The position numbers and the translations under genes were made by a program. The notes beneath the pieces are model-generated. The model did not search any database. It was not told the DNA's origin and saw only the letters and a list, made by a program, of their open reading frames with translations. A stretch of DNA of 64,000 nt from Sulfuriflexus mobilis (lineage in GTDB: Bacteria; Pseudomonadota; Gammaproteobacteria; AKS1): positions 1,922,001 to 1,986,000 of the forward strand of contig NZ_AP018725.1 of NCBI RefSeq assembly GCF_003967195.1, read 5' to 3'. Below, in pieces: positions 44,350-46,094 of this stretch. Numbering within the stretch: the stretch's first letter is position 1; each line of letters begins with the position of its first letter.

Positions 44350-44368
44350 TGGCGCGCCTGGAGCGATT
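44350..44368 (-). repeat. tRNA-Arg 3'-end relic, distal copy
   Basis: TGGCGCGCCTGGAGCGATT on the plus strand is identical to the last 19 nt, including CCA, of the intact tRNA-Arg gene at 44718. Homology stops exactly at the T-loop, where the sequence switches to a palindromic core. Confidence 0.9.
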
Positions 44369-44480
44369 ATTCGGCCTGTGGCCTCACCCCTTCGGGGCCG
44401 TCGTCGCAAGCTCCAACGTTCTGCGCCGACTTCGTCGGCTTGTCGAACGATCCTTCATATTACGTCGGGCGTTCGAATCA
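44369..44480. repeat. Palindromic core element 1 with inverted T-arm copy
   Basis: The core starts ATTCGGCCTGTGG, includes the hairpin-forming CCCCTTCGGGG and TTCTGCGCCGACTTCGTCGG, and ends in GTCGGGCGTTCGAATC (44464-44479), a tRNA-Arg T-arm in the opposite orientation. Related cores occur at 44561, 45042 and 45412. Confidence 0.75.
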
Positions 44481-44497
44481 CCTTTCAAACATACCCC

Positions 44498-44540
44498 ATA
44501 AATGCAAAAAGCCCCCATAAAGGGAGCTTTTTGCATTTAT
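44498..44540 (-). terminator. Hairpin terminator between tRNA-Arg relics
   Basis: A long AT-flanked stem built from AAATGCAAAAAGC and GCTTTTTGCATTT around a CCCC/AGGG pair. On the minus strand it follows the middle tRNA-Arg 3' relic directly, as a tRNA terminator would. Confidence 0.8.
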
Positions 44541-44541
44541 A

Positions 44542-44560
44542 TGGCGCGCCTGGAGCGATT
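44542..44560 (-). repeat. tRNA-Arg 3'-end relic, middle copy
   Basis: Identical 19-nt copy of the tRNA-Arg 3' end, 192 bp from the distal copy and 176 bp from the intact gene. It again breaks off at the T-loop and joins a core element. Confidence 0.9.
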
Positions 44561-44662
44561 ACTCGGGCTATGCCCTCGCCCTACGGGCCGGCCTTCGGCC
44601 GTTCTGCGCCGACTTCGTCGTCTTGTCAAACGCTACCTTTTAATGTCGGGTGTTCATAAACC
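44561..44662. repeat. Palindromic core element 2 with degraded inverted T-arm
   Basis: It starts ACTCGGGCTATGCCCTCG, includes CGGCCTTCGGCCG and TTCTGCGCCGACTTCGTCG, and ends near GTCGGGTGTTCATAAACC (44645-44662), a decayed inverted T-arm. The first 20 bases match the core beside the tRNA-Ser relic almost exactly. Confidence 0.75.
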
Positions 44663-44680
44663 ATCTTCAGGCGAACAAAT

Positions 44681-44709
44681 AAAAAAGCCTCCGCAAAGGA
44701 GGCTTTTTT
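44681..44709 (-). terminator. Intrinsic terminator of tRNA-Arg
   Basis: AAAAAAGCCTCC and GGAGGCTTTTTT form a 12-bp stem around GCAAA; on the minus strand it ends in a U-run 9 bp after the tRNA CCA end. It is near-symmetrical and could act both ways. Confidence 0.88.
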
Positions 44710-44717
44710 ATCTTGTA

Positions 44718-44794
44718 TGGCGCGCCTGGAGCGATTCGAACGCCCGACCGCCTGGTTCGTAGCCAGGTACTCTATCCAGCTGAGCTACAGGCGC
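44718..44794 (-). tRNA. tRNA-Arg(ACG)
   Basis: 77 nt including an encoded CCA. Acceptor GCGCCTG pairs with CAGGCGC; the anticodon loop CTACGAA gives ACG (read as ICG); D-loop AGCTGGATAGA and T-loop TTCGAAT are canonical. It corresponds to the argVYZQ family, which in E. coli follows csrA and serV in tandem copies. Here one intact gene remains, followed by two 3'-end relics on its downstream side. Confidence 0.97.
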
Positions 44795-44911
44795 TTAAGA
44801 GGCGCGTATTATCCTTGGAATCCACCATTCAGTCAAGATTAGTTCCTGCTAATGTACACCGAATTTCGCGCTAAGCATCCGTGTTTGTTGAGAAATAATC
44901 CTGTCGAGGGT

Positions 44912-44973
44912 TTCAAATCCCTCGCCTAAGAACCAAAAAACCGCCCAGTGGGCGGTTTTTTGGTTATGGCGGA
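44912..44973. repeat. Duplicated unit: inverted T-arm, terminator and tRNA-Ser CCA end
   Basis: An inverted tRNA-Ser T-arm (CGAGGGTTTCAAATCCCTCG), the linker CCTAAG, the terminator at 44931-44965 and TGGCGGA (44967-44973, the last 7 nt of tRNA-Ser) repeat the arrangement found at 45181-45250 beside the intact gene, with only small indels. Confidence 0.85.
44931..44965. terminator. Perfect bidirectional terminator hairpin, copy 1
   Basis: A perfect 16-bp stem, AACCAAAAAACCGCCC with its complement, around AGT. It duplicates the tRNA-Ser terminator at 45206. Confidence 0.88.
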
Positions 44974-45029
44974 TGCCCTGACGCTGGAAGCGTAGGGTAC
45001 TCATAATGAAGCCCGAAGGGATTCTATGA
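44974..45029. repeat. Hairpin element H, copy 1, splitting a tRNA-Ser 3' relic
   Basis: A 56-nt insert starting TGCCCTGACGCTGG and carrying the hairpin CTCATAATGAAGCCC/GGGATTCTATGAG. It separates TGGCGGA from GAGCGAGGGATT, which are contiguous in the intact tRNA-Ser. A relative lies at 45606-45662. Confidence 0.75.
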
Positions 45030-45041
45030 GAGCGAGGGATT
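45030..45041 (-). repeat. tRNA-Ser 3' relic (T-arm side)
   Basis: GAGCGAGGGATT continues the tRNA-Ser 3' end begun at 44967-44973 and stops at the T-loop, at the position corresponding to the break in the tRNA-Arg relics, where the core element begins. Confidence 0.8.
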
Positions 45042-45103
45042 ACTCGGGCTATCGCCCTCGCCCTTCGGGCCGCCTTTGGCGTTCTGCGCTGCTCCGCAGC
45101 TTG
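45042..45103. repeat. Palindromic core element 3 beside tRNA-Ser relic
   Basis: It starts ACTCGGGCTATCGCCCTCGC and includes CCCTTCGGG, GTTCTGCGCTGCTCCGCAGC and TTGT. It is the same family as the cores beside the tRNA-Arg relics, joined here to a different tRNA at the same T-loop point. A further small hairpin (CCTGATGAAACCC/GGGGTTCTGAGG) follows at 45129-45156. Confidence 0.8.
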
Positions 45104-45205
45104 TGACCGGAGCGATGCGTAGGAAATACCTGATGAAACCCGAAGGGGTTCTGAGGTGCAAACCGGCTTTTTATATTCATCGAGGGTTCAAATCCCTCGC
45201 CTAAG

Positions 45206-45242
45206 AACCAAAAAAACCGCCCAGTGGGCGGTTTTTTTGGTT
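45206..45242. terminator. Terminator of tRNA-Ser, copy 2 of the duplicated hairpin
   Basis: A perfect 17-bp stem, AACCAAAAAAACCGCCC with its complement, around AGT, immediately beyond the CCA end of tRNA-Ser on the minus strand. It is symmetrical and therefore able to act in both directions. Confidence 0.9.
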
Positions 45243-45243
45243 A

Positions 45244-45334
45244 TGGCGGAGAGCGAGGGATTCGAACCCTCGATAGGGTATAAGCCTATACACCCTTAGC
45301 AGGGGTGCGCCTTCAGCCACTCGGCCAGCTCTCC
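45244..45334 (-). tRNA. tRNA-Ser(GCT)
   Basis: 91 nt with encoded CCA, a class II tRNA. Acceptor GGAGAGC pairs with GCTCTCC; anticodon loop CTGCTAA gives GCT; a long variable arm (GTATAGGCTTATACCC) and the T-arm GAGGGTTCGAATCCCTC are present. It corresponds to serV downstream of csrA in E. coli. Fragments of its 3' end lie downstream and of its 5' end upstream. Confidence 0.97.
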
Positions 45335-45402
45335 AATTCTTTCTATTACCCACTAATAGTACGACAGGTAACGTATTTTGCACGGCACACGCTATTTAAA
45401 AC

Positions 45403-45522
45403 GGGGTGCGCGTTACTCGGGACTCCGTCCCTCGCCCCTTCGGGGCCGTCGTCGTCCATCTCCGATGGCTCCAACGTTCAAGCGGCAAAGCCGCTTAGTC
45501 AGCCACTCGGCCAGCTCTCCAA
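45403..45522 (-). repeat. tRNA-Ser 5' relic interrupted by a core element
   Basis: GGGGTGCGC (45403-45411) and CAGCCACTCGGCCAGCTCTC (45500-45519) are nearly contiguous in the intact gene. Here 88 bp separate them, starting GTTACTCGGGACTCCGTCCC and containing CCCCTTCGGGG and AGCGGCAAAGCCGCT. The break falls in the D-arm. It is the fourth member of the core family in 1.2 kb. Confidence 0.78.
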
Positions 45523-45605
45523 AAACTCTAACTATCAGTATTAAACGGTTCTAACTACTCCATTGCATCCAATATAAAATGGAGCCACTTGCCGGAGCAG
45601 AGCGT

Positions 45606-45709
45606 TGCCCTGACACTCAATGTGTAGGGTACTCACAATGAACCCTTCAGGGTTCTGTGAGACAACCTAATGAAGCCCGAAGGGATTCTAGGTGCGGCCA
45701 GCTCTCCAA
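45606..45709. repeat. Hairpin element H, copy 2, followed by a short tRNA-Ser 5' relic
   Basis: TGCCCTGACACTCAATGTGT starts a 57-nt relative of the H element (45606-45662) with the hairpin CACAATGAACCCT/AGGGTTCTGTG. A second hairpin (CCTAATGAAGCCC/GGGATTCTAGG, 45666-45692) follows, then CGGCCAGCTCTCCAA (45695-45709), the first 13 nt of tRNA-Ser with two upstream bases. Confidence 0.75.
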
Positions 45710-45766
45710 ATATCCACAGAGGATGACCTCAGCGAGAGCGGTATTATATAGGGTTAATGCGAAAGC

Positions 45767-45887: not shown

Positions 45888-46094
45888 TTACTCGCTTACT
45901 GTGGACTCATCTTTTACTGCGGGCTCATCTTTCTCACGCTGAATGCGCTCGTAGATCTCCTCACGGTGTACTGTGACATCCTTTGGGGCATTCACACCGA
46001 TTCGTACCTGGTTACCCTTCACCCCGAGTACGGTAACGGTGACATCGTCACCGATAATCAGCGTTTCGCCGACACGTCTTGTCAAAATTAACAT
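45888..46094 (-). CDS. csrA: CsrA, carbon storage/translation regulator
   Basis: 68 residues starting [20 protein letters not shown], with [20 protein letters not shown] and REEIYERIQ, the conserved RNA-binding strands of CsrA/RsmA. It binds GGA motifs in mRNA leaders and represses or stabilises translation, typically controlling biofilm, motility and central carbon use (established). The C-terminal tail is acidic and slightly longer than in E. coli (61). AGGAG precedes the ATG. It lies between lysC and the tRNA genes as in related gammaproteobacteria. Confidence 0.97.

Follow-up and report, generated by a model that had tools for sequence, protein, structure and literature searches.

The window analysed here is a stretch of 64,000 nucleotides (G000:C1:1922001-1986000) from a complete 3.11 Mb gammaproteobacterial genome. 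Coordinates are those of the window, and features lie on the minus strand unless stated otherwise. The region 44350-45710 lies downstream of csrA (45888..46094; recognised by its translation, with relatives in eight genomes), which marks the orthologous csrA-tRNA-Ser-tRNA-Arg locus. Two intact tRNA genes are present, tRNA-Ser(GCT) at 45244..45334 and tRNA-Arg(ACG) at 44718..44794; both were detected by ARAGORN and matched Rfam RF00005 with 56.3 and 62.4 bits, respectively. As an earlier note on this DNA had claimed, the locus also contains four related cores, at 44368-44442, 44560-44625, 45041-45103 and 45414-45498. They are multi-hairpin sequences of 63-85 bp on the strand of both tRNAs. Three of them meet a tRNA 3' end at the T-loop (Arg twice, Ser once), and the fourth lies within the D-loop of a tRNA-Ser 5' relic.

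In the sense of the tRNA, the three T-loop copies have a common order: an inverted T-arm, an AT-rich spacer and GTTCGA (any of these three may be decayed or interrupted), the core, and lastly ATC..CCA, the local tRNA's own 3' end. These units are tRNA-linked repeats (TLRs), as explained below. The distal Arg TLR consists of an inverted copy of the tRNA-Arg T-arm (44464..44479, a 100% inverted repeat with 44733-44748), the core (44368..44442; 70.1 bits with the core model R1; junctions GTTCGA/core/ATCGCT) and the tRNA-Arg 3' fragment from the T-loop (ATCGCTCCAGGCGCGCCA, 44350..44367), identical to the intact gene at 18/18 positions. In the proximal Arg TLR, the core (44560..44625, R1 70.0 bits) is followed by a tRNA-Arg 3' fragment (44542..44559), which repeats the 3' end of tRNA-Arg in direct orientation (family D2). 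Its inverted T-arm is degenerate and was read from the sequence (44645..44662; weak, 13/24).

The Ser TLR has been interrupted twice. Its core (45041..45103, R1 73.1 bits) is joined to a tRNA-Ser fragment from the T-loop (AATCCCTCGCTC, 45030..45041; direct repeat D15 with 45249-45262), whose first base overlaps the core edge. The tRNA-Ser 3' end (TCCGCCA, 44967..44973) is cut off from this fragment by a palindromic element, B (44974..45029, plus strand); when the two parts are joined, the sequence of the intact tRNA-Ser is restored. On the other side, the left arm is interrupted by a B-like palindromic element with approximate ends (45104..45166; direct repeat D1, read from the sequence), and beyond it is the inverted tRNA-Ser T-arm copy (45179..45201; 95% inverted repeat I2 with 45253-45274). 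A further remnant of an inverted Ser T-arm lacks a core (44904..44926; direct repeat D3 with 45180-45237).

Downstream of most tRNA ends at the locus there is a terminator-like hairpin: 3' of tRNA-Ser (45206..45242; inverted repeat I4, 100%), 3' of the Ser TLR (44931..44965; I5, 100%), 3' of tRNA-Arg (44681..44711; I12, 100%) and between both Arg TLRs (44498..44540; I3, 95%). Each TLR is thus set apart from the upstream tRNA, and the repeated unit therefore includes a terminator.

The D-loop copy is organised differently, having no local tRNA 3' end and carrying a tRNA 5' part instead. The tRNA-Ser 5' part (GGAGAGCTGGCCGAGTGGCTGA, 45499..45520, 22/22 identical) precedes the core (45414..45498, R1 53.1 bits), and a tRNA-Ser flank follows it (45403..45413; ACGCGCACCCC, one base off AGGCGCACCCC, 9/10 identical). 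Thus, the relic reads GTGGCTGA/core/ACGCGCAC in tRNA sense, against GTGGCTGA^AGGCGCAC in tRNA-Ser, where the caret marks the point of interruption. A third tRNA-Ser 5' scrap (GGAGAGCTGGCCG, 45697-45709) is followed by another B element (together 45602..45709; found by sequence and by the matches of the B query 45602-45700).

The second palindromic family, B (TGCCCTGAC..GTAGGGTACTCA..CCCGAAGGG..TTCTATGA), is represented in the window at 44974-45029, 45104-45166 and 45602-45700, and has 33 matches in the genome, four of which are less than 400 bp from tRNAs. The copy in the Ser relic interrupts the acceptor part after GGCGGA. In another genome (G048), a relative of B interrupts the D-arm of a tRNA-Ser relic.

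Some sequence details given in the earlier note needed correction. The opening ACTCGGG, described as common to all four cores, is absent from the copy at 44369, which opens with ATTCGGC; the fourth copy has it, but from 45415 and not from 45412. For the motif assigned to three cores, TTCTGCGC was found in the three T-loop copies, and the copy at 44561 has CCCTACGGG. The reported break in the T-loop (GATT and then the core on the plus strand; the core and then AATC in tRNA sense) is exact in all three copies.

The model R1, whose training set partly consists of these window copies, detected eight copies in the 3.11 Mb genome (E 2e-6 to 4e-17), and the next match was at E of about 1. With a second model, R2, which was trained only on other genomes and without E. 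coli, four matches were obtained at E <= 1e-3. All eight strong copies lie less than 300 bp from tRNA genes, although tRNA genes with those margins make up 0.74% of the genome (p ~4e-7, counting three loci only). The preference for tRNA genes over random spread predicted by the earlier note thus holds in this genome, whereas some others have the core as a dispersed repeat.

The route to the identity of the family was a sub-threshold match to Rfam RtT (RF00391; 30.3 bits over 45023-45214, against a gathering score of 45). Related loci elsewhere gave 28.9-42.1 bits, all under the gathering score. The TLRs of E. coli tyrT (178-bp repeats) have the anatomy described above: inverted T-arm, GGTTCGA, hairpin, hairpin, CCCGAAGGGCGA, hairpin, GAGTA and ATCC..CCA. 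As in the window, the last 18 nt of E. coli TLRs are the local tRNA 3' end, the junction is in the T-loop and the copies are in tandem. Furthermore, E. coli possesses TLRs at the orthologous csrA-serV-argVYZQ locus, after argV, argZ and argQ. A difference is that terminator-like hairpins intervene here between tRNA and TLR. The internal core with the CCCGAAGGGCGA hairpin and the GAGTAATC junction is common to the window copies and TLRs, and both models recover E. coli TLRs: R1 matched those of tyrT with E 5e-5, and R2 matched the rrnB TLR (RrB) with 72.9 bits (E 1e-17). Given the tyrT anatomy, the TLRs at the csrA-serV-arg locus and these model matches, the T-loop features are new members of a known family, the tRNA-linked repeats (TLR; Rfam RtT), and the D-loop copy is an uncommon TLR relative with the same core. 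The earlier view that no named element behaves in this way is therefore not upheld. TLRs were first noticed next to tRNA genes of E. coli in 1978, according to PMC8144298, where Egan and Landy 1978 and Rudd 1999 are cited.

Two groups of small RNAs come close as well. The RrA, RrB and RrF sRNAs, which are located downstream of E. coli 5S rRNA, have a homologous core in a 5S 3' relic interrupted after GA; unlike the window copies, they have a 5S flank and not a tRNA flank, and their CsrA-binding GGA motifs are inconsistently kept in the window. AaHKsRNA22 (Rfam RF02902) gave a sub-threshold match over the D-loop copy (45403-45508; 32.7 bits, gathering 39.8), but it has been described as an Aggregatibacter sRNA.

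In an R1 survey of the class, the core was detected in 68 of 274 genomes. We read 116 copies outside E. coli with their flanks: 70 were followed by a tRNA 3' end and 15 were preceded by a tRNA 5' part. In the other 31, the automatic test found no clear tRNA flank, and by eye some of these are tRNA relics. The resulting 85/116 copies with a tRNA flank come from a sample of R1, which was built from tRNA-linked copies; at randomly chosen places, a tRNA 3' end would be expected in 0.65%. Among the R2 copies listed for another genome (G138), none was found beside a tRNA by eye. Because of the origin of R1 and the position of the G138 copies, no class-wide preference for tRNAs is claimed. Where an intact tRNA lies upstream, 56 of 69 copies carry the 3' end of that same tRNA. 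Across the class and E. coli, the core was found on the ends of Arg, Ser, Pro, Gln, Tyr, Val and Glu tRNAs.

Fourteen copies have a long tRNA 5' part that ends exactly at the core. The break was at GA^A in 14/14, a site type that makes up 2.0% of tRNA positions, although the left core edge was snapped by script to the nearest GA, so that the GA side is partly by construction. For this reason the right flank provides the independent support. In 12 of the 14, the tRNA continues beyond the core from the base next to the break, matching at 8-10 of the first 10 positions, so that removal of the core recovers the uninterrupted target; the remaining two have lost most of the right flank. Exact matches to the left and right of the core were, for example, 72/9 nt in tRNA-Ser-CGA, 59/7 in tRNA-Val, 59/11 in tRNA-Arg-CCT and 38/13 in the anticodon loop of tRNA-Ser-CGA. 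The T-loop was the site in Val, Arg-CCT, Arg-CCG, Ser-CGA and Ser-GCT, the D-loop in Ser-GCT and Ser-GGA, and the anticodon loop in Ser-CGA. D-loop copies at six loci, in several families, have a common odd flank change, AGG to ACG; because of this, some of them may descend from one old event. In one genome (G265), a single tRNA relic has a core in both the D- and T-loop. As read from these flanks, the junctions are precise and support the earlier proposal that one core came to stand on different tRNA flanks by an insertion-like process and not through tandem duplication alone.

The same kind of site is found in a different RNA gene: the 5S relic of E. coli rrnB reads GAGTAGGA/core/AACTGCCAGGCAT, against GAGTAGGGA^ACTGCCAGGCAT in 5S rRNA. 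Where no RNA gene is involved, the core was found within other repeats. One example is GTGGGA^ATCCAG in L196, and in G248 there are 68 dispersed core matches, such as CTCTGGGA/core/CAGGGATGGGG. Hence the recognition of tRNA structure as such, which the earlier note had suggested, is not borne out; the target looks like the sequence GA^A. Head-to-tail arrays of the core occur in G138 (L222) and G128 (L226), with periods of 72 and 68 bp. We also observed nine core matches on both strands within 5.5 kb of G138 (L225, G138:C1:1267477-1273000).

The csrA locus varies within the genus. G001 has no TLR, G003 has the scaffold without a core, G002 has a short, different core, and the genome studied here (G000) has the full set. 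In G003 (L206), the inverted T-arm and the flanks are kept and a 2-nt scar, CA, replaces the core, which looks like near-precise loss. At the csrA locus of G093 (L207), tandem units are composed of a leader, a tRNA-Ser 5' part and the core, the mirror image of the usual TLR unit. In G038 (L208), another GC-rich palindromic stretch (GCCCGAGGCCGCACGTCCATG..) additionally breaks the tRNA-Ser relic that lies upstream of the D-loop core. Cores downstream of lysC were found in only one of 78 named genomes that have tRNAs at this place; most of these genomes are Pseudomonas.

In E. coli rrnB, a TLR separates the terminators T1 and T2. The rrnB type of core had matches in 3914 of 5426 complete RefSeq genomes, in 1-9 places each, and no match in 1512 (28%). 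These counts show variation and not recent transposition; rrn operons exchange sequence. No strain pair with a clean empty and a filled site was found, and the empty site was deduced from intact copies of the tRNA nearby. When the joined flanks were compared with E. coli rrn operons, all of the best matches were two-piece, that is, filled, and thus no clean empty site was found there.

Upstream of the core lies the inverted T-arm, which is clear in the distal Arg and Ser copies and degenerate in the proximal Arg copy. It tracks the local tRNA (16.6/24, versus 12.9 for other tRNAs) and could pair with both core flanks. Compensatory changes were observed in 13 of 20 hairpin pairs. Folding z-scores of the core as DNA were -2.1 to -3.8, somewhat better than shuffles, and those of the whole unit as RNA were unremarkable (-1.1 to -1.6).

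The explanation that we favour, and consider probable, is that TLR cores are a small gene-less multi-hairpin element that was inserted at GA^A, after which the unit was multiplied in tandem. The core would be a palindromic element without its own gene that enters after GA in a GA^A target and makes no target-site duplication. Such targets occur in the T-loop of most tRNAs (TTCGA^ATC), the D-loop of tRNA-Ser (CTGA^AGG) and some anticodon loops. The interrupted tRNA copy would survive mostly as its outer part next to an intact copy, and the unit of tRNA end, terminator, inverted arm and core would then multiply by tandem duplication, perhaps through unequal exchange. The insertion was probably transposition-like, via a folded single DNA strand or RNA, and would need an enzyme supplied from elsewhere. 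The inverted T-arm is not predicted by simple insertion. Tiny hairpin elements inserted in genes are known from mitochondria, as the double-hairpin elements of Allomyces and the GC clusters of yeast, which are alike in behaviour only; those of Allomyces are without flanking duplications (PMC2800124). A wider reading is possible, which we put forward only tentatively: one gene-less hairpin family may comprise the TLRs, the Rr RNAs linked to 5S and, in Gammaproteobacteria, the dispersed CAAAATCGCCGGGAGCGATTTTG-type repeats. Its members would insert exactly at GA^A, for the most part within the loops that structural RNA genes encode, by an undescribed single-strand DNA or RNA route, and the inverted T-arm would be a splint that holds the target flanks side by side.

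A variant of the favoured explanation names the enzyme: a REP-like element would be moved by a RAYT or IS200-type single-strand transposase, which we regard as doubtful. The multi-hairpin anatomy agrees with it, as does an insertion that follows a short fixed sequence and duplicates no target, and REP/BIME repeats are likewise short and palindromic, as well as dispersed and tandem in some genomes. RAYT-type genes were present in 55 of 68 genomes with the core and in 119 of 206 without it (Fisher p 5e-4), an association that genome size and quality confound. However, 13 core-positive genomes have no PF01797 match, no GTAG-type foot was identified, and the junctions here are at GA^A in tRNA loops. 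Dispersed copies occur in other genomes, but the high copy number and dispersed intergenic spread typical of REPs are not seen here, where the eight copies are all at tRNAs. The RAYT transposase with matching ends that the earlier note had suggested looking for was not found: the one RAYT-type gene examined in this genome (L228, G000:C1:2058700-2060800) lies between its own, different inverted GGGGTCAGGTCTTG ends with no core nearby, and no core-flanked RAYT was seen. With a weak association and ends that do not match, RAYT was rejected as the mobiliser; no mobilising enzyme was identified.

TLRs might instead be RNA units that have a function and are inherited vertically (as trailer RNAs or sRNAs that bind, for example, Hfq or CsrA), in which RNA function keeps the core and only recombination of tRNA operons spreads it. 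The compensatory changes in the hairpins, the processing of E. coli RrA/B/F and their binding of Hfq and CsrA in vitro (PMC8144298), and the expression of RtT RNAs in Actinobacillus with conservation in Pasteurellaceae (PMC4986893) speak for this explanation. We nevertheless think it unlikely, since three different loops of tRNA genes are interrupted by one core, which is elsewhere a dispersed repeat, terminator-like hairpins separate each TLR from its upstream tRNA in this genome, and the rrnB core has no match in more than a quarter of complete E. coli genomes. The other 19 TLRs of E. coli are predicted not to bind CsrA (PMC8144298); with this prediction for tRNA-linked TLRs and the inconsistent GGA loops of the window copies, a CsrA decoy was rejected as a general function. 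The 3' fragments from T-loop to CCA downstream of intact tRNAs resemble the attachment duplications of tyrosine integrases, but scars of integrative elements are a very improbable origin: the units are gene-less and about 180 bp, with no room for an integrase between tRNA ends. That explanation is largely refuted by the D-loop and anticodon-loop copies, which retain the tRNA 5' part, and by cores far from tRNAs. A last possibility, that a single tRNA gene was simply duplicated in tandem and decayed and that the core is hairpin sequence by chance, fits the tandem units with repeated terminators in the window; it is hardly credible, and tandem duplication taken alone is refuted by the core that the ends of different tRNAs share.

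To our knowledge, TLRs have had no accepted origin or general function since 1978. In the TLR literature that we found, there is no description of D-loop or anticodon-loop copies with tRNA 5' parts such as these relatives possess, nor of the GA^A rule, and no proposal of an insertion origin or a loop rule was found in open-access papers; since most older TLR papers fall outside these, novelty is not certain. Should TLRs be copies of a single insertion element that obeys a fixed target rule, it would become possible to test where they came from, how local tRNA ends are copied and why E. coli rrn operons carry TLRs so patchily. A class of small mobile bacterial DNA that has received little study may then be involved.
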